Shown: positions 345-23,906 of the stretch, one piece after another
Position numbering within the stretch: position 1 is the stretch's first letter
Layout: each line of letters starts with the position of its first letter
From: Candidatus Cloacimonadota bacterium
GTDB lineage: Bacteria > Cloacimonadota > Cloacimonadia > JGIOTU-2
DNA: 39,727 nt
Reading direction: 5' to 3'
NCBI GenBank assembly: GCA_034722995.1
Contig: JAYEOL010000063.1
Coordinates: 1-39,727 of the forward strand
Notes under the pieces: generated by a model
What the model was told of the DNA's origin: nothing
The model's input: only the letters and a program-made list of their open reading frames with translations
Databases searched by the model: none
Position numbers and translations under genes: made by a program

Positions 345-1074
345 ACTTTTCATCTTACTATTTTTCTTAATTTTTAATAACTGCAAATCAGAAGTTATAG
401 AAAGGTTAAATATAACAATAAGCTATCTATCTTTACCAACAGCTACAGCTGAAATAGATTTAGAAAAAAGAGATTCAACACAAATTATTTCTGCAAACGC
501 TTCTTCTAAGGGCATTGTTAATGCTATCTATAAAATTGATAATAAATATATTTCCATTTGTGATTTGAGTTTTCTGCCCATAACCTATGAAAAGGAGATT
601 TTCCAGAAAAATTTTCAAGGGAATAAAATAGTGGAATTCAAATCCGATAAGTCTGTAGCGAAAATCATTAATTTAATAAATGAGAATGAAATAAGTTATC
701 CAATACCCTGTCATACCTATGACATATTTTCTTTACTTTTTGAAATTAGAGATTTGCTTCCCGTTGAAGATAGCTCTTTTTACTGCCTTGCGAATTACAA
801 TATATGGAATGTACAAATCAAATTATCGGGCAAGGAATTTTTAGCGTTTAAAAATAAGAAAAAAGAATGTTTAAAATATGTAATGAAATTTGAAAAGATA
901 TTTGATAATAATATTAATTCACGGACTGATATTTTAACAGGCAATCTTTTTAAGAAAAAGAGCCGCCTTATCTTTTGGTTTTCTGATGATGAATATCATA
1001 TTCCATTAAAAGCACAATATGTAATGTTTCCCTTTAGTGTTTATTGGCATTTGATAAGTTACTGGCACAAATAA
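331..1074 (+). CDS. DUF3108-type exported protein
   Basis: A 247-residue protein. The N-terminus has a Lys-Lys-free short charged start followed by a hydrophobic stretch (FILLFFLIF) ending at NNC (Cys18), so it is exported or possibly a lipoprotein, although NNC is a poor lipobox. The remaining beta-rich chain resembles DUF3108 proteins of FCB bacteria and Proteobacteria: a YDIFSLLFEIR segment in the middle and a closing FWFSDDEYHIPLKAQY segment, which matches the family's SDD..R.P...e end. The biochemical role of DUF3108 is not known; an envelope function is inferred. The ATG overlaps the CorC-type gene by 14 bases, so the two are probably co-transcribed. It is followed by a hairpin and a terminator-like site. 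Confidence 0.65.
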   Translation: MLKHKLFILLFFLIFNNCKSEVIERLNITISYLSLPTATAEIDLEKRDSTQIISANASSKGIVNAIYKIDNKYISICDLSFLPITYEKEIFQKNFQGNKIVEFKSDKSVAKIINLINENEISYPIPCHTYDIFSLLFEIRDLLPVEDSSFYCLANYNIWNVQIKLSGKEFLAFKNKKKECLKYVMKFEKIFDNNINSRTDILTGNLFKKKSRLIFWFSDDEYHIPLKAQYVMFPFSVYWHLISYWHK

Positions 1075-6096: not shown

Positions 6097-7281
6097 TTAC
6101 TTTTCAGTGATAGCCGCAATTCCCGGTAGTTTTTTGCCTGCCAAAAATTCTAAGGAAGCACCTCCACCAGTTGAAATATGAGTGATTCTATCTGATAAGC
6201 CAAATTGTTCAATTGCTGATGCGGAATCGCCACCGCCAACAATCGTTGTGCCTTCGCACTTAGCTATCGCTTCAGCAATTCCTCTGGTTCCAGCAGAAAA
6301 ATTTTCCATCTCAAAAACTCCCATCGGACCGTTCCAGACGACTGTTTTTGACTGCAAAGTTATTTTTCTAAAGATTTCAACTGTTCTTTCCCCAATATCC
6401 AAACCGAGCCAATCCTTTGGAATTTCTGATACTAAGACAGTTTTAAATTTAGTGTCATTTTTAAATTCTTTCGCAATAATCGTATCTTTTGGAAGAATAA
6501 ATTGGACTTTTTTTCTTCTCGCCCGTTGCATTAAACGTTTTGCCAGTTCAAGTTTGTCTTCCTCAACTAATGATTTTCCGACAGAAAAACCTTCTGCTTT
6601 CAGAAAGGTGAACATCATCGCACCACCAATGAGGATATTATCCGCTTTATCAAGAAGATTGTTAATCAATTCTATCTTACCCGATACTTTAACCCCCCCA
6701 AGTACTGATGTAAAAGGACGTTCTGGATTTGCCAGAGATTTGCCTAAATATCTAATCTCCTTTTCTATTAGAAATCCAACAGCTGATGGAAGATATTGTG
6801 CAATTCCAACATTTGAAGCGTGAGACCGATGCGCAGTTCCAAAAGCATCGTTAATAAATACTTCTCCAAAACTGGCTAATTCTCTTGCAAATTCAGAGTC
6901 ATTCTTTTTTTCTTCAGGATGAAAACGAGTATTTTCCAAAAGAGTAACATCTCCAGCTTTCATTCTTTTTACCGCATTTTTAACATCATTACCAATACAA
7001 TCATTCATTATTTTTACATCTTTTTGCAACAACTGGGAAAGCCTTTTTGCCACTGGTTTCAGACTTAATTCTGGCACAATTTTTCCCTTGGGCCTACCAA
7101 GATGTGAGAGTAAAATTATACCTGCATTTTTATCTAATAAATATTTAATTGTTGGCAGAACCGCAACTATTCTCGCATCATTTGCAACCTCTAATCTATC
7201 ATTCAATGGAACATTAAAATCAACCCTAACTACAACTTTCTTGTTGGTTACCTCAATCTCTTCTAATCCTATCTTCTTCAT
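6097..7281 (-). CDS. pgk: Phosphoglycerate kinase
   Basis: A 394-residue, full-length glycolytic enzyme that transfers phosphate from 1,3-bisphosphoglycerate to ADP in the cytoplasm. Signatures in order: VVRVDFNVPL, LLSHLGRPKG, LLENTRFHPEE, FINDAFGTAHRSHAS, SVLGGVKVSGKIEL, GGAMMFTFLKAEG, WNGPMGVFE, GGGDSASAIEQFG and HISTGGGASLEFLAGK. All substrate- and nucleotide-binding elements are present. The GGGAG ahead of the ATG is a usable ribosome-binding site, and a promoter candidate lies at 7306-7336. It stands alone on the minus strand between two blocks of plus-strand genes; no other glycolytic gene is next to it. Confidence 0.98.
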   Translation of the reverse strand: MKKIGLEEIEVTNKKVVVRVDFNVPLNDRLEVANDARIVAVLPTIKYLLDKNAGIILLSHLGRPKGKIVPELSLKPVAKRLSQLLQKDVKIMNDCIGNDVKNAVKRMKAGDVTLLENTRFHPEEKKNDSEFARELASFGEVFINDAFGTAHRSHASNVGIAQYLPSAVGFLIEKEIRYLGKSLANPERPFTSVLGGVKVSGKIELINNLLDKADNILIGGAMMFTFLKAEGFSVGKSLVEEDKLELAKRLMQRARRKKVQFILPKDTIIAKEFKNDTKFKTVLVSEIPKDWLGLDIGERTVEIFRKITLQSKTVVWNGPMGVFEMENFSAGTRGIAEAIAKCEGTTIVGGGDSASAIEQFGLSDRITHISTGGGASLEFLAGKKLPGIAAITEK

Positions 7282-16029: not shown

Positions 16030-16923
16030 TTAGACTCTCTCCAGCATCTCAGTAATTTTTCCAATAACAAATTCAGGAGAGATGCCTTTCATACATTTCA
16101 TACTTGGGCAATCTGTCATTCTTTGATACGAAATATAACAAGGAGAGCAGTCAACTTTGTTGTAAATAGTAATATTTTCTGGATAAGCAGAACTTTCTGG
16201 CAAAATAAATCCTCCATAAATTATAATAGCAGGTGTATGAACAGCATATGCAAGGTGCATAAGTCCACCCTCCAAGCCAAGAAAGAATAAGCTTTGCTTA
16301 ATGATTCCAGCACTTTTACGAATTGGTAATCCTCGTTTATCTATCACATTTTCTAAAAGAGGGGTTTCTCTGCCGCCAATTTGAACAAATTTCATATCTG
16401 AGAAAATATTTACAACTTTCTGAAAATTATCAATACCCCATTCTTTTCTGTTAGCACAGAAGTCCTGCTTCCCAGATGGGCAAATTGAAATGTATTGAAA
16501 ATTAAGGTTTTCTTTTTGCCATCTTATCTCTTCCCCAGAAAAAAATAGGTCTAACTGCAAATCAAATTTTTTAACTTCCAAGCCTGTACTTTTTATAACC
16601 TGCTTAAGAATATGTTCACGATGATTGGAATCAATAATGTAGTATCTTTTAATGTGTCTTTTTGTTTTCATAATATGCTTGTTTACAGCAAAATAAACAT
16701 AAGGATTATTAACAAAAAGTTCTGGATATTTTGTCTCAACCACAATTTTCTTTTGTGGAAATCTGTTTTTTATCAATCTAATTTGAGCAGTGGTCATAAG
16801 AGCATCGCCAATTCCCCCTGTAGTTTTACCCGCAAAAACACAGGAATGTTCAAATAAAAGAAAGAAAAGCTTTAATGTTTGAAAAATGTTGGCTTTTTTA
16901 TTTGCTCTATTTAATTTACTCAT
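16030..16923 (-). CDS. Glycosyltransferase family 9 (heptosyltransferase-like)
   Basis: 297 residues. The GT-B fold signature of GT9 is visible: N-terminal GKTTGGIGDALMTTAQIRLI (donor/acceptor loop, usually G.iGD.....p.i), a central QIGGRETPLL strand, and C-terminal LGLEGGLMHLAYAVHTPAIIIYGG, the family nucleotide-binding end. A late cysteine group (CSPC, CPSMKC) is also typical of some GT9 members. It would add a heptose or other sugar to a lipopolysaccharide-type acceptor at the cytoplasmic face. It overlaps the disrupted pyruvyl transferase gene by 8 bases, so translation was probably coupled. Confidence 0.8.
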   Translation of the reverse strand: MSKLNRANKKANIFQTLKLFFLLFEHSCVFAGKTTGGIGDALMTTAQIRLIKNRFPQKKIVVETKYPELFVNNPYVYFAVNKHIMKTKRHIKRYYIIDSNHREHILKQVIKSTGLEVKKFDLQLDLFFSGEEIRWQKENLNFQYISICPSGKQDFCANRKEWGIDNFQKVVNIFSDMKFVQIGGRETPLLENVIDKRGLPIRKSAGIIKQSLFFLGLEGGLMHLAYAVHTPAIIIYGGFILPESSAYPENITIYNKVDCSPCYISYQRMTDCPSMKCMKGISPEFVIGKITEMLERV

Positions 16924-18058
16924 TTGAAATTCTGTAGTTTATCTCATCGGCTATCTTTTTCATTGATTCATCAAAAACTTCTTTCATTTTGTTTTTAACT
17001 TTCAGGAAGTTATCAAACGGGGATAAGTCACCAGAAAAGACTTTTTCAATTCTTGTGACAATTTTTTCATGGATATTGTTTTCATTATAATCCAGATTCC
17101 AATTTTCTAAAGAGAATGTTCTTGTGAATGACTGACCTCTTAAGTCAACATTTATGTTTAGAAAGGGGGTGCCCACCGATGCAGATAAAAGTGTGCCATG
17201 AAGTCGTGAACCCACAACCATAGTTGCTTGTCTATATAATTTATAGTAATCATCAACATAGTTGGAGAAAAAAATCTGATTTTGGCGGAATAACTCGGAA
17301 GCAATGGGTACATCTCTGTCATCATGGCAGGAGATTACGATTTTCTTATTATTAAAATATTTCATAATTTGGCTGATAATCGTATATAATTTTTTATACC
17401 GTTGAGAAAGTTTCTTTCTATTTACTGGAAAAGGAAAAGTAAGTATGATATTTGAGTCGTCGTTGAAATGCATTTTTTTATTCTCGTCTAAATAAAGGGA
17501 TGGGCATCCAGTCAGAATAGCTTTTGTGACTCCAATGGATTTTAGAAAGTCTAATGTTGCATCATCTCGGAGCGTAGAAACCAAAGCTTTTTTGTTAGTT
17601 TTACAGATGTCTTCTAAATATTTTTTCTTTTCTATTAAAGGTGGCTCATTTAAATTATTAGATGCGATACCAAGCCCTACAAGAAATAAAGGTGGATGTA
17701 ATTTTTGAATCTCTTTTCCATTAATTCTTAATGACCAGTTTTTATAATTATCGCTTCCTCCAACAATTACTGCATCCGCATATTTATTACTAAACCCAAT
17801 GTTTTCTTTTTGAAGACGAAAAGGAGCTCCTCATCCACGATTTATTGCACACGCTTTTGGAATAAAAATCGCATTGGGCAGATATTTTTTTAGATTTTTT
17901 CTAATTGACTGAATTACAAAATGGTCCCCAGCATTAAAAGTATGGGGACAATAGTGATGAATTATTATTGTTTCTCTTTTAAATTTCTTATTAATTCTTG
18001 CTTCTTTTTCATAATAGTTAATCTTTTTTCTAAAAATTTTTTGTACCATATTTTTCAT
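16916..18058 (-). pseudogene. Polysaccharide pyruvyl transferase-family gene interrupted by one in-frame TGA
   Basis: A single frame of 381 codons runs from ATG at 18058 to the stop at 16916, broken only by TGA at 17831-17833 (codon 76). The N-terminal part holds PHTFNAGDHFVIQSI, the usual N.GD..I start of the family. Right after the TGA the frame continues GAPFRLQKENIGFSNKYAD and AVIVGGSDNY, and later VVGSRLHGTLLSASVG, the family's C-terminal signature. I read every codon from 17830 to 17584 and found no other stop. AAGGTGAT before the ATG supports the start. The TGA could come from TGG (Trp) or an Arg codon by one substitution. A second, shorter start (TTG, 17584) would lack the nucleotide-binding half. 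The enzyme class transfers pyruvate ketals or related groups onto surface sugars. It sits 20 bases after a GT4 gene and overlaps the next GT9 gene. Confidence 0.85.
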
Positions 18059-18078: not shown

Positions 18079-19230
18079 TTATAATTTTTCCAAAAAATTA
18101 ATTACTTTTTTTCCGCATTTTTCCCATAAGAATCTTTCTGCAGTTTTGTAAACATTTTCAGAAAGTTTTTCATATTTCTGTCTATCTTGTAATATTTTCT
18201 TCATTGCATTGGAGAATTCATTAACAGAATCAGCTGCAACAAGATAGCCGTCTCTACCATTTGTTGTGAAATCACGAATTGATGGAAGGTTTGAAGCAAT
18301 TATCGGTATTCCAAATGAAAGATAGTCAAATAGTTTGGAAGGTGCTGTTAAATATCTGTTGTAAAAAGTGTCTCTTAAGGGCAAAATACCAACTGAAACC
18401 TTAGAAAGATATTTCTTTAATTCAAGATAACTAAGCCAGCCAGTAATTTTACTCTGATTTTCTATCCCATATTTTTTTAATAATTTCTTTGCAAACAGTA
18501 TTTCTTTATCATCTCTTCCACCAATTAGGAGAAGTTGCCAATCTTTTTTTCTCACTTTTGCAAAAGCATTTACTGCCAATTCTACTCCTTTAAAAGCTTG
18601 AAAACTTCCAATATATGCTATCTGCTTTTTTATAAATCTATCTATAGGAGTATTTTGAATCTTAATAAGTCCCGGATGTCCAGCAAATATTGGTATCTTG
18701 AAATATTGCTGATAGAGTTCTTTCTGTGGTTCTTGTAAAGTTAGCATTCCATCCAAAAATGGTATAAATAATCTTTCCAAAATATGATGTTTAATCCTAT
18801 TGGCTGGATTCAGATCAGGTCTCTTTTTTAAATCAACATAAAAGTTATGTGATTGATATACAATTTTTATTCTTGTTAGTATTTTTAGTAAAAAGAGGTA
18901 TGGCAAAAATGCCGGGTCCCGAGTTATTATATAATCAAAATTCAGACTTCTATGTTTTTTGACAATCCAACTTATCGCTCTTAAGTACAAAAACTCGTTG
19001 GATTCATATCTGGAAAATTTTGCTGAGAAAAGTTTAATATGAAAATTGGGAAGTTGCTTTACATCAAAATATTGTTCTAATACTTTTTTAGGAGTTCCGA
19101 TGATATTTTTGCGGGCAATAAAATAAGTTTCAACTCCATTTTGTGCAAAGGCATAAGCATTGAAAGTTGAAAATACAGTTGCTGGCATATTTGAGGGGAA
19201 TTTTATTTTATTCAGATAAATTATTTTCAT
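18079..19230 (-). CDS. Glycosyltransferase family 4
   Basis: 383 residues, GT-B fold. The N-terminal half starts MKIIYLNKIKFPSNMPATVF; the donor half has IAYIGSFQAFKGVELAVNAF, LLIGGRDDKE, ITGWLSYLELKKYLSKVSVGILPL and APSKLFDYLSFGIPIIAS, the GT4 nucleotide-sugar-binding region. The family's EX7E motif is altered here to SKLFDY, as in a subset of GT4 members. It would add one sugar to the growing surface polysaccharide at the cytoplasmic membrane. It belongs to the same minus-strand cluster. The upstream gap to the next GT4 gene (240 bases) holds a large hairpin element, so it may be a separate transcription unit. No good ribosome-binding site. Confidence 0.8.
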   Translation of the reverse strand: MKIIYLNKIKFPSNMPATVFSTFNAYAFAQNGVETYFIARKNIIGTPKKVLEQYFDVKQLPNFHIKLFSAKFSRYESNEFLYLRAISWIVKKHRSLNFDYIITRDPAFLPYLFLLKILTRIKIVYQSHNFYVDLKKRPDLNPANRIKHHILERLFIPFLDGMLTLQEPQKELYQQYFKIPIFAGHPGLIKIQNTPIDRFIKKQIAYIGSFQAFKGVELAVNAFAKVRKKDWQLLLIGGRDDKEILFAKKLLKKYGIENQSKITGWLSYLELKKYLSKVSVGILPLRDTFYNRYLTAPSKLFDYLSFGIPIIASNLPSIRDFTTNGRDGYLVAADSVNEFSNAMKKILQDRQKYEKLSENVYKTAERFLWEKCGKKVINFLEKL

Positions 19231-19250
19231 ATAAAAATAGCACGCAGATT

Positions 19251-19362
19251 ACACACCCCGTCCGCCAGCTGGGGGATAAATCGGGATCCACCCCTCTTAA
19301 GAGGGGATTTTTAGAAATTCCCCTCTATCAAGAGGGGATACGGCTTCAGCCGAGGGGTGTGT
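19251..19362. repeat. 112-base cruciform-type intergenic element
   Basis: Outer arms ACACACCCC (19251-19259) and GGGGTGTGT (19354-19362) are complementary. Inside are three further hairpins: CCCCTCTT/AAGAGGGG (19291-19306, perfect), CCCCTCT (19320-19326) with AGAGGGG (19331-19337), and CGGCTTCAGCCG (19341-19352). A GATAAATCGGGATC fragment of the CCCGAT family lies at 19275-19288. It is GC-rich in an AT-rich region and probably a non-autonomous mobile repeat. Confidence 0.75.
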
Positions 19363-19384
19363 TATTTTCATACTCCTTTGCCTG

Positions 19385-19414
19385 CCCCGTTAAATCTTTT
19401 CCTATTTAATGGGG
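19385..19414. repeat. CCCCGTTAAAT/ATTTAATGGGG hairpin
   Basis: An 11-bp stem (19385-19395 with 19404-19414, one G-T pair) and an 8-base loop, between the 112-base element and the next GT4 gene end. It is followed by a run of T at 19423-19430. It may end plus-strand transcription, or minus-strand transcription of the gene at 19471-20625. Confidence 0.5.
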
Positions 19415-19470
19415 TGGTCCGATTTTTTTTCGGGATATGTATGTTTCATATAATTAAGATTTTTAGTTAA

Positions 19471-20625
19471 TTATAGTTCATATTTTTTTAAAAAGATTGA
19501 TTCCTCCATTTTTTTTGTAATTACATCCCATGTGTAATGCTTTAGAACCCTGCTTCTTCCCTGTCTTCCAATATTATTTGCTAATGATGAATTTTCAAGC
19601 AGTAGAATAAGTTTGTTTGCGATTTCATCAATGTCCATTGGATTGACTAAAAATCCTGTTTTTCCGTCAACAATGGCATCCTCAACACCACCGGATCTAC
19701 CACCAATGACAGGCTTTTCGCAAGCATTTGCTTCTAAATATGTAATTCCAAAACCTTCTGAATCACCTGTCTTTTTATCATATCTACTTGGCATAATGTA
19801 AACATCTGCAAGATTATAGTAAATATTTAACTCTTCATCTGATAGTTTATTTGTAAAAATTACATATTTTTTTAATTTTAATTGATTTATCAATTTCCTT
19901 AACAGTAAATAATATTTTTCGTGCCATGGTCCACATATTAAATATCTAACATTTTGAATTTTTCTGATTACTTGTGGCAAAGCTTTTATTACGGCATCAT
20001 GTCCCTTTCTTTCGATCACACGGGACAAGGTTAATATTACTTTGCAACCTTCTAAATGATGTTTATGTAAATATTCTTTTTCTACTTTTGGATAAAATTT
20101 ATTAATATCCACACCATTAGGAAAAACATAAATCTTTTTTGATGGAATACCTAGCTTTGCCGATAAATAGTTTTTTGTAAACCTACTTACAGCGATTATA
20201 TAATTACTTCTCGTAAGAGTGTATCGCAACCAGAATTTTTTTAAATAAGTCATTTTACGAGTAACATCCAACCCATGAGCTACGGCTATTAAAGGTATCA
20301 TACTTTTCATACAATAATTTACTACTCCTCGTGCACAATTCCATGTTGTGGCAATAATTATACTCGGTTTTTGATTACTCTCTAAGTGACTCTTAAGTGA
20401 AGTGTTCCAATAATAAGACATTAATTTTTTCCAATACTTTTTATCTATATAAATAACTTCAAAATTTACATTAGACAATTTAATTTTTCCATATTTTGGA
20501 AAATAACGAGTCATCAAGGTAACAGTATGTCCAGCTTTAGAAAGACTTTTTGCAACGCCCATTGCCCATTGTACAATACCACCTATATTTGGTGGAAAAT
20601 CTTCAGATAATATAAGAATTTTCAT
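19471..20625 (-). CDS. Glycosyltransferase family 4 (PimB/WbnK-like)
   Basis: 384 residues. The N-terminus MKILILSEDFPPNIGGIVQW is the classic GT4 acceptor loop with the GG(I/V) motif. The donor domain has VFPNGVDINKFYP, ILTLSRVIERKGHDAVIKAL, a YLICGPW strand and the EX7E motif in DSEGFGITYLEANACEKPVIGG followed by GGVEDAIVDGKTGFLV. All elements for an NDP-sugar-using retaining enzyme are present. It acts on a polysaccharide or lipid-linked acceptor at the inner membrane. It is second in a run of glycosyltransferases on this strand, 68 bases after the GT9 gene at 20694-21761. Sugar specificity cannot be told. Confidence 0.85.
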   Translation of the reverse strand: MKILILSEDFPPNIGGIVQWAMGVAKSLSKAGHTVTLMTRYFPKYGKIKLSNVNFEVIYIDKKYWKKLMSYYWNTSLKSHLESNQKPSIIIATTWNCARGVVNYCMKSMIPLIAVAHGLDVTRKMTYLKKFWLRYTLTRSNYIIAVSRFTKNYLSAKLGIPSKKIYVFPNGVDINKFYPKVEKEYLHKHHLEGCKVILTLSRVIERKGHDAVIKALPQVIRKIQNVRYLICGPWHEKYYLLLRKLINQLKLKKYVIFTNKLSDEELNIYYNLADVYIMPSRYDKKTGDSEGFGITYLEANACEKPVIGGRSGGVEDAIVDGKTGFLVNPMDIDEIANKLILLLENSSLANNIGRQGRSRVLKHYTWDVITKKMEESIFLKKYEL

Positions 20626-20693: not shown

Positions 20694-21761
20694 TTAAATA
20701 ATGGTTAATATGTTGTTAATTATAGAACGACATTTTTTTACAACAATGGAATTTGGAATACTGTTAATATCATTAGTTGGACTGGAGATAATATACATTT
20801 TCTTATTTTCTTTATAAAATCTTTTGATATTATCAACATTTTTTTGGAATAACCCTATAGTTGAAATGTTGTTAATATGTGCAAGATGCAAAATGGAGGT
20901 ATCGGGCGTAACCATTAAATCCAGATGAGATATATAGCTATTCAGTTTAATAATATCTCGCACTTTTTTCATTATATATACATTTTTATATCTACTTGAA
21001 ATCCTTTTCATTATATCTTTTTTATCAGGCATCCCAAAGAGCAAGAAGGATGCATCTTGATTTGAAATATTTTCAAAGAATTGCAGCCATTTCTTTTCTT
21101 TCCATTCACGGAATTTGCTTCCTGCTGAAAGATTTATGCCGACTAAAGGCTTCTTAAATCTTTGAAAATATTTTTCAATCTGGTTATTTTTCGGTTTGGG
21201 CAGCTTAGGTATTAAGACTTCCTCGGTAATTCTTATATTGAAAAGTTTACAAATTGAAAGATTTTTTTCCACAATATAAGTATGAAATGGTATATCAAAA
21301 AGATAATCATAAAACTTTTGGTTGTGGAAGCCTTTTAATCCAATTTTATAATTCGCATTAATTATTGCCGTTAAGATTAAAAATGTTCTTGATGAATGGT
21401 CTTTGGGATTGTATAAAATATCAAATTTGCGATGTTTTATTTCCTTATAGAATTGCCAATAGTTTAATTTCGGACAAATGACTTCATCAACATCTGGCAA
21501 TTGAGAGAAAAGTTTATGATTATATTTAGAAGCAAGAACAGTGATATAAATGTTGGGAAAATACTTTTTTAATAATGGAAAAAGAGGTGTCAGTAAGATA
21601 AAATCTCCAATCTTTTCTTGAGCAATAATACAAATTGTTGAGGGGTCCTCTGATAGATGATGTTCCCGACGCGGTTTTACAAAAAATTCCATCAATATGA
21701 AGATGCATTTCTTAAACAGTCGCTTAAAATAAGTTTTGATTTCCTTAAGAAGAAGTCTCAT
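20694..21761 (-). CDS. Glycosyltransferase family 9 (ADP-heptose:LPS heptosyltransferase-like)
   Basis: 355 residues. IIAQEKIGDFILLTPLFPLLKKYFP is the GT9 N-terminal motif (iGD...tP.l..l), followed by a strand FDILYNPKDHSSR, then GINLSAGSKFREWKEKKW, LLFGMPDKKDI, and MVTPDTSILHLAHINNISTIGLF, the donor-binding D(T/S)...H.A motif. Related enzymes (WaaC, WaaF, RfaQ) extend the inner core of lipopolysaccharide with heptose. This supports an outer membrane lipopolysaccharide context, but whether heptose is the donor is unknown. It overlaps the next upstream gene by 17 bases. Confidence 0.85.
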   Translation of the reverse strand: MRLLLKEIKTYFKRLFKKCIFILMEFFVKPRREHHLSEDPSTICIIAQEKIGDFILLTPLFPLLKKYFPNIYITVLASKYNHKLFSQLPDVDEVICPKLNYWQFYKEIKHRKFDILYNPKDHSSRTFLILTAIINANYKIGLKGFHNQKFYDYLFDIPFHTYIVEKNLSICKLFNIRITEEVLIPKLPKPKNNQIEKYFQRFKKPLVGINLSAGSKFREWKEKKWLQFFENISNQDASFLLFGMPDKKDIMKRISSRYKNVYIMKKVRDIIKLNSYISHLDLMVTPDTSILHLAHINNISTIGLFQKNVDNIKRFYKENKKMYIISSPTNDINSIPNSIVVKKCRSIINNILTII

Positions 21762-22812
21762 CTACTACCTCATATAGAAATTCCTCCAGCTGGCATCTCA
21801 TATTCTCTGGGGAGAATAAATTTTTAACTGTTGTGCACCCAGTCTTACCAATTTCAGATAATTTGTTTTGATTTTTGATGATTTCAGCCAAGAGTTTAGC
21901 AATTTTCTCAGGATTAGTTGAATGTGTTAGAAATCCATTTTCCCCATTTTTGATGAATTCGACTGAGCCACCAGCATCAGAAGTTAGAACAGGAACTCCT
22001 ATCATCATTGCCTCAATCAATGCATTAGAGATACCCTCATTTGCGGACAGCAACACAAACAAGTCTGTATCTGCTACAATTTTTAGCGGATTTTCCATAA
22101 ATCCCCAAAATTTAACCTTTTCCTGTAATCCCAAATTTTTTACCTGATTCTTTAGCATTATTTCACTTCTTCCTGAACCAACGATATTTAATTTTATATT
22201 ATTTTTTAATGATTGGGGGAGTTTGGATAGCGATTCAATCAAAAGATGAAAACCTTTTCGCTTTGTTAACATTCCCACACTTGAGATAGAGAATCCATTT
22301 GCAGTTTTTGAGGGTATTTTAGAATTATTTTTTAATTCTATACCATTATAGATAACTTTAATCTTATTCAAATCAATAAATTTATATTTGTTTAAGTTTT
22401 GCCTTATTCTATGGGCATTGACTATAATTCCGTCGCAGAGTATATTATAAACCAATTTATGCCAGATTGGGAAATTCATTTTTCTTACGATTCCCAAACG
22501 CAAAACATTCTTTATTCTGAACAGTTTTGCTAAAATTCCACATATAAAATATTCTTTTTTTTTTGTAGAAATTATAATATCAATTTTTTTCTTTCTGATA
22601 AATCTTGATAGTTTAATATATGTAATTGGGTCAAACAAATTTAAAAAAGGTGCGGTAAATTTGTAGATATTTTTCCCGAACTTATCGCCCAATTCTTTTC
22701 TTCTGTAGCAAAGAAAGACTTTGTGATTTTTGTTTAGCTCTTTCATTGCCATTGATGTCCATTTTTCATTTCCCCCCCAGATTTTTGCTGAACAAACAAA
22801 AAGCAATCTCAT
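21745..22812 (-). CDS. Glycosyltransferase family 4
   Basis: 355 residues. N-terminus MRLLFVCSAKIWGGNEKW (GG loop); mid-region VIYNGIELK; donor domain GFSISSVGMLTKRKGFHLLIESL, LNIVGSGRSE, VKFWGFMENPLKIVADTDLFVLLS and the EX7E motif in NEGISNALIEAMMIGVPVL followed by SDAGGSVEFI. It overlaps the downstream GT9 gene by 17 bases and the upstream GT4 gene by 4 (ATGA), so the three are translationally coupled. It resembles its upstream neighbour in its start (both have IWGG/KWGG followed by NEKW or GEKW), which suggests an old duplication. Confidence 0.85.
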   Translation of the reverse strand: MRLLFVCSAKIWGGNEKWTSMAMKELNKNHKVFLCYRRKELGDKFGKNIYKFTAPFLNLFDPITYIKLSRFIRKKKIDIIISTKKKEYFICGILAKLFRIKNVLRLGIVRKMNFPIWHKLVYNILCDGIIVNAHRIRQNLNKYKFIDLNKIKVIYNGIELKNNSKIPSKTANGFSISSVGMLTKRKGFHLLIESLSKLPQSLKNNIKLNIVGSGRSEIMLKNQVKNLGLQEKVKFWGFMENPLKIVADTDLFVLLSANEGISNALIEAMMIGVPVLTSDAGGSVEFIKNGENGFLTHSTNPEKIAKLLAEIIKNQNKLSEIGKTGCTTVKNLFSPENMRCQLEEFLYEVVDETSS

Positions 22813-23906
22813 TTTGCTTTTTTTTGTAATTTTTCACTTAGAAAAGATTCTAAATTATCTATCATTTTTTTATAAGTAAATTTAGTTTCAACTCTTTTTT
22901 TACCTGCTTTGCCCATTCTTCTACATAATTCTTTATCAGAAAGTAGGATAGACAACTTATTATAGAATGCTTGTGAATTTTTAAGTGGCACAATAAAACC
23001 AGTCTCACCATCTATCATAAGTTCACGAGTGCCATTTACATCCGTGGCTATCACAGGCTTAGCAACAGACATCGCTTCCATTACAACATTTGGCATCCCT
23101 TCAAATAATGATGGAAGTATGAAGATATCTGATATTTTTAATATAGGGAAAAAGTCATCATAAAAGCCTATTAGTCTTACATAATTTTCTAAGCCATCAT
23201 CTTTTATTGCTTGGAGCAAATTATTTTTTAGTTTTCCTTTTCCGGCAATCAAAAAAATCCAATCATTGTTGTGTTTTTTAGCAATCTTTGCTGTTTTGAT
23301 AAGATAGATAAAACCTTTTTGTTTAGATAATCTTCCTGCACTGAGAATAATTTTTTTATTTTTTGTAAAAGGTAATTCTTCTTCAATAGGATAATTAGGA
23401 ATATTTTTATTCGTTTTTATTCCGTTGTAAATTACTTTAACAAAATCATCATTAAACCATCCATATTTCATATAGGCATCTTTAATTGTTTGGCTATTTG
23501 TGATAATTCCATCTGTTAAATTGAGTAATGTGATTTTATGTTTTAATTTCTTACCACAAAGTTGAATCCCATGCCTTGCGAAAATTAGAGGAGTTTTTGC
23601 CAATCTTCCTGCCAATCCTGCTGCTCTGACATCCTTGTTCAAATTGCAAATCAAAACATCAATCTTGTTCGTTAATAAGAATTTTTTTATTTTGTAAGTA
23701 TTTGTAGGGCTAAAATCAGAATGTATATTAACGCCAACAGTTTTTATTCCTTCTTTGCTTGCTTTTTCCATTAAGATGGAGTTTTTTTTGCAACCAAGAA
23801 AGACATTATGATTTCTTTCTGCTAAACCTTTTGCTGCTTTAACCATCCATTTTTCGCCACCACCCCATTTTCTTTTTCCAATAGAATTTGAAAATAATAT
23901 ATTCAT
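22809..23906 (-). CDS. Glycosyltransferase family 4
   Basis: 365 residues. N-terminus MNILFSNSIGKRKWGGGEKW; VIYNGIKTN; ILSAGRLSKQKGFIYLIKTA; FLIAGKGKL; VRLIGFYDDFFPILKISDIFILPSLFEGMPNVVMEAMSV region carries EX7E, then ATDVNGTRELMIDGETGFIV. Complete GT-B enzyme. First gene of the coupled run 16030-23906, preceded by a promoter candidate at 24011-24039. The N-terminal WGGGEKWM motif is shared with the next gene (WGGNEKWT), consistent with duplication. Confidence 0.85.
   Translation of the reverse strand: MNILFSNSIGKRKWGGGEKWMVKAAKGLAERNHNVFLGCKKNSILMEKASKEGIKTVGVNIHSDFSPTNTYKIKKFLLTNKIDVLICNLNKDVRAAGLAGRLAKTPLIFARHGIQLCGKKLKHKITLLNLTDGIITNSQTIKDAYMKYGWFNDDFVKVIYNGIKTNKNIPNYPIEEELPFTKNKKIILSAGRLSKQKGFIYLIKTAKIAKKHNNDWIFLIAGKGKLKNNLLQAIKDDGLENYVRLIGFYDDFFPILKISDIFILPSLFEGMPNVVMEAMSVAKPVIATDVNGTRELMIDGETGFIVPLKNSQAFYNKLSILLSDKELCRRMGKAGKKRVETKFTYKKMIDNLESFLSEKLQKKAK

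Follow-up and report, generated by a model that had tools for sequence, protein, structure and literature searches.

Cloacimonadota is among the phyla in which tRNA-Trp with a 4-bp anticodon stem is prominent (PMC13092985). In the Blastocrithidia-like tRNA-Trp(CCA) described there, positions 27 and 43 are unpaired, and the 7-nt loop, the CCA anticodon, A9, and G24 are kept. Overexpression of an unpinned E. coli tRNA-Trp (i.e., C27A) raised UGA readthrough about 2.5-fold; the effect of 4-bp tRNA-Trp at native levels was untested, and RF2 seems to win where UGA stays a stop codon (PMC13092985). When E. coli reads through UGA, the residue inserted is mainly Trp; readthrough averages 0.5% to 5.6% depending on temperature in minimal medium and is favored by a G before and a G directly after the stop (PMC11126739). 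Young bacterial pseudogenes with a single nonsense mutation carry one substitution-derived stop, the rest of the gene being intact and the family dispensable. The locus reported here resembles such pseudogenes, with a disabling stop in a homologous frame that is otherwise intact. Unlike in the usual young pseudogene, the codon affected is one for Trp, and the tRNA-Trp of the lineage is possibly a weak UGA suppressor.

We analyzed a window of 39,727 nucleotides (the whole stretch of DNA, i.e., contig 63 of the draft genome, 1.89 Mb in 75 contigs, of an uncultured Candidatus Cloacimonadota bacterium; genome G000), in which a polysaccharide pyruvyl transferase gene contains one in-frame TGA. The features of this region are as follows.

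16030..16923, minus strand: downstream gene with a weak GT9 match (ORF list, Pfam)
16916..18058, minus strand: polysaccharide pyruvyl transferase gene (PF04230) with a single interruption, 380 codons plus TAA (translation, profile match, homologue alignment)
16916..17830, minus strand: 3' piece of the transferase gene, 304 codons, lacking a good start of its own; motifs CHDDRDV and GSRLHG
17831..17833, minus strand: in-frame TGA at codon 76, context CGTGGA-TGA-GGAG, facing an invariant Trp (TGG) of the homologues
17834..18058, minus strand: 5' piece of the transferase gene, 75 codons, covering just the beginning of the N-terminal Rossmann domain; signature NAGDHF
18079..19230, minus strand: upstream glycosyltransferase, GT1/GT4-type, intact (Pfam)
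19471-20625, 20694-21761, 21745-22812, and 22809-23906, minus strand: more intact glycosyltransferases of the same cluster (ORF list, Pfam)

An earlier note, made from the letters of the window, had described an otherwise intact transferase gene split by a single TGA, with family signatures on both sides and an undecayed downstream half. Each of these observations is borne out. Translation of the frame gave exactly one internal stop, within INRG*GAPF, and in a profile search of the whole genome PF04230 matched across it (E = 8.8e-27; profile positions 1 to 279 of 280; 94.3 bits against a curated cut-off of 25.3); the interrupted gene is the only PF04230 gene of the genome. NAGDHF lies in the 5' piece and GSRLHG in the 3' piece, which alone still matches the family (E = 1.1e-22). 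Neither the frame nor the homologue alignment contained a further stop or frameshift downstream of the TGA. Its 3' piece scores 54.6 bits, far under the cut-off of 213.1 for the CsaB equivalog (TIGR03609). Literature searches found no previous report on this gene.

An AlphaFold2 model (pLDDT, 81; pTM, 0.83) predicts two Rossmann domains in a GT-B-like fold, as expected of CsaB/WcaK-like PF04230 enzymes, which the gene also resembles in its place among glycosyltransferases. A profile search by sequence found no relatives among solved structures; the best PDB matches of the model were GT-B enzymes, such as UDP-GlcNAc 2-epimerases (TM about 0.5 to 0.6). In the model, the TGA position falls in a loop of low pLDDT that links strand 2 of the N-terminal Rossmann domain to the helix after it, so that the 75-residue product would be without the rest of the fold.

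Six homologues (records from Cloacimonadota, Calditrichales, Kapaibacterium, Bacteroidetes, and Ignavibacteriales; two of the six from Cloacimonadota) were obtained by an alignment search, a scan of genome contigs with the 3' piece alone having given no match. Since all of them (one partly masked) align over their full length without a stop at 48 to 54% identity, the frame is not due to chance. The closest, JAGMCF010000272 (same genus) and JAUSOT010000053 (same class), are about 50% identical over full-length alignments (53% for the homologue in the same-genus genome G001) and share the invariant motifs HHY.PHTFNAGDHF, NRG.G, GSD.Y..WS.RI, CHDDRDV, and G.RLH with the transferase. They differ from it at codon 76, which is TGG in both. 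The earlier note had expected Trp or Arg at this codon; the residue is Trp, encoded by TGG, in all six homologues, inside an invariant NRGWG motif. Therefore, one G-to-A transition accounts for the TGA.

In this genome, UGA does function as a stop. The RF2 gene is full length and intact, and TGA terminates 88 of the 396 frames of at least 300 codons (21.6% of the frames of at least 200 codons). When ORFs of relatives were compared with 0.98 Mb of the genome, the 308 kb covered held 716 TGG codons at Trp columns and one TGA, i.e., codon 76 of the transferase (a smaller run gave 637 TGG in 282 kb). These counts bear out the earlier remark that normal genes here end in TGA and use TGG for Trp. 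Most ribosomes would therefore be expected to terminate at codon 76.

On this evidence, we judge, with a probability of roughly 0.6, that a single-copy, dispensable gene has very recently acquired a nonsense mutation and that any suppression, which would restore the ancestral Trp, is weak at most. According to this reading, a single G-to-A change would have turned the Trp codon TGG into TGA at codon 76 of an accessory gene, and most ribosomes would stop there, releasing a 75-residue fragment without the active site, presumably with loss of function. A small share of ribosomes would probably insert Trp through the near-cognate tRNA-Trp, helped by the 4-bp anticodon stem that this tRNA has throughout the order, and yield a trace of normal enzyme. 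The remainder of the gene shows no decay, which makes the change look recent. Some 4.3% of random substitutions would produce a stop, and with no second one present, a neutral age of more than roughly 0.06 substitutions per site is improbable at the 95% level. Loss of the transferase appears tolerable, since PF04230 is patchy among relatives (above cut-off in 12 of 60 genomes). The gene departs from 5 of 64 columns that are invariant in the other homologues, a count above that of most homologues and below that of one; downstream of the TGA it departs from four otherwise invariant columns, slightly more than most homologues. These counts give no clear sign of either relaxation or constraint. 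The G-rich context (GTGGA-TGA-G) and the 4-bp tRNA-Trp count against this reading, as they are what would be expected of a leaky UGA. The three options named in the earlier note (i.e., a recent mutation, a base error, or readthrough) stand as the serious ones, and we rank them in that order.

The main rival is a sequencing or consensus error in the draft assembly, according to which the true codon would be TGG and the gene intact. We regard it as unlikely, yet as the alternative to be taken most seriously. It would explain a single-base difference from a conserved codon in a gene without other damage, in an assembly that is a draft of 75 contigs. Against it, inspection of the sequence at the TGA revealed no homopolymer or low-complexity run. 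Our preferred reading takes the base to be real. Other interrupted genes of the assembly do not settle the choice, since a TAG-interrupted gene and a second TGA-interrupted one are equally compatible with true nonsense alleles and with a general rate of error.

These other genes were found with an in-frame dicodon coding model combined with homology over 0.98 of the 1.89 Mb (about half of the genome), a simple codon-usage score having proved too weak to detect interruptions. Most stops inside tblastn alignments were rejected as shadow-frame or low-complexity artefacts or because they preceded the true start. Clear continuation beyond a single stop was seen in three genes. In addition to the transferase, there is a TGA on contig C51 (L081, positions 715-717, minus strand) in an otherwise intact gene for a secreted repeat protein with a Por_Secre_tail domain, and a TAG on contig C37 (L067, positions 6864-6866, plus strand) in an HNH-endonuclease-like gene in which coding continues for 173 codons. 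With these two genes in the same genome, the transferase stop resembles background gene decay, and the TAG in particular argues for ordinary decay. Of the new stops that mutation supplies, about 25% should be TGA, and against this expectation two out of three is not remarkable (binomial p about 0.16).

A further alternative, less probable than a base error and in our view doubtful, is functional readthrough maintained by selection, in which the 4-bp tRNA-Trp would read UGA as Trp at a rate sufficient for a functioning enzyme, and the TGA would be nearly silent or act as a throttle. The sole tRNA-Trp(CCA) of the genome (G000:C48:8682-8757; L078 8682-8757) has a G27xA43 mismatch and hence a 4-bp anticodon stem, and it keeps the 7-nt loop CUCCAAA, A9, and G24, all in the manner of the Blastocrithidia-like tRNA-Trp(CCA). 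As in the standard-code cases of PMC13092985, the 4-bp form is the only tRNA-Trp of the genome, and the standard code is retained. Positions 27 and 43 are mismatched in all 16 genomes of the family and order (A27xA43 in one) and paired in all 34 genomes from other families of the class. The fixation of the mismatch across one order and the one in-frame UGA at a Trp position, both seen in the sequence, go beyond PMC13092985. Because the only tRNA-Trp has this unpinned stem, partial readthrough is more plausible here than usual, and the context adds to this. A G directly follows the stop, and none of the 156 TGA ends of long frames has at least three Gs among the 5 nt before the stop together with a G behind it, as GTGGA-TGA-G does. 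Judging from the tRNA and the context, some Trp is likely inserted at codon 76; this would restore the ancestral residue, and the sequence downstream is undamaged.

Selected readthrough would go further than such a trace, and several observations count against it. With one UGA against the 716 TGG codons at Trp positions, UGA is not generally tolerated there, and none of roughly 150 listed GT1 domains in the 16 genomes of the order is interrupted by UGA. The TGA on C51, which also follows a GGA codon, stands at a position that is Gly in nearly all homologues (Glu in one) and is followed by a T, i.e., a strong terminator context. The TAG-interrupted gene and the unexceptional share of TGA among the three stops also argue against selected readthrough, as do the four downstream departures from invariant columns. 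A related idea, that the fixed 4-bp tRNA-Trp of the order suppresses UGA strongly enough to make Trp-to-UGA mutations nearly silent in leaky G-rich contexts, seems to us more doubtful still.

Taken alone, the recent nonsense allele would be another freshly broken (or mis-sequenced) surface-sugar gene. Its position makes it a natural test, since the UGA occupies precisely a codon that ancestrally encoded Trp, and the 4-bp tRNA-Trp is fixed in this lineage; PMC13092985 left open how much readthrough such tRNAs give at native levels in standard-code bacteria, and the transferase locus is a place to look. If the suppression reading were true, the gene would still work despite its stop, by readthrough in a standard-code bacterium, an early step toward UGA reassignment. 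In a separate comparison of two genomes with similar G+C content (37%), TGA ended 15.6% of the long frames in G006, which has a 4-bp tRNA-Trp, versus 30.7% in G018, which has a 5-bp one; the samples are small, and the contrast agrees with the trend in PMC13092985.

The remaining explanations were each tested and rejected. Other kinds of recoding are very improbable. Selenocysteine insertion would be in keeping with a tRNA-Sec above cut-off in relatives, yet the residue aligned with codon 76 is Trp and not Cys, the Rfam search found no tRNA-Sec over cut-off in this genome, and the fold of the RNA on either side of the codon does not surpass those of shuffled sequences (z = -0.5 and -1.1) and includes no hairpin of the SECIS type. 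As an observation on the group, tRNA-Sec exceeded the Rfam cut-off in 12 of 15 relatives; in this genome, selenocysteine use may have been lost or may be encoded in missing sequence. A-to-I editing by TadA at the last base would yield a Trp codon from UGA. TadA requires a UACG motif in a loop (PMC12255301), and the site reads GGAUGAGG, which has no UACG, with the A in a predicted stem.

Translation of the two halves as separate working genes is even less credible. The GGAG right after the TGA could be a ribosome-binding site for reinitiation, but within a usable distance the frame offers no ATG, GTG, or TTG. A TTG 82 codons downstream is the first usable start, and the first ATG lies 119 codons downstream; thus, the 3' half is no separate gene. 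The stop also falls, according to the model, inside a single domain.

Genome- or lineage-wide reassignment of UGA to Trp, which the UGA at a conserved Trp codon and the 4-bp tRNA-Trp might suggest and which the earlier note had thought unlikely, is excluded by the intact RF2, the roughly 22% TGA ends, and the ratio of 716 TGG to one TGA; UGA is thus not common at Trp positions, RF2 has not been lost, and ARAGORN found no UCA-anticodon tRNA in the stretches and tRNA loci scanned, which were selected so as to include the 43 tRNAs from the Rfam search.

The nonsense allele may also affect its neighbor. The downstream gene (16030..16923) begins, with its ATG, within the final 8 bases of the transferase gene (ATGAGTAA), and because of this overlap the two genes look translationally coupled; the TGA could therefore uncouple translation of the downstream gene, which may lose its coupled initiation. 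On the other side, the gene before the transferase encodes a glycosyltransferase, an order likewise seen at the homologous genes of G001 and G094. No Rfam families were found within the window. Beyond the upstream glycosyltransferase, positions 19231-19480 contain an intergenic repeat element of about 250 bases, itself without an Rfam match, which occurs in many copies in the same genome and in relatives of the family; the copies are 70 to 96% identical over parts of their length.
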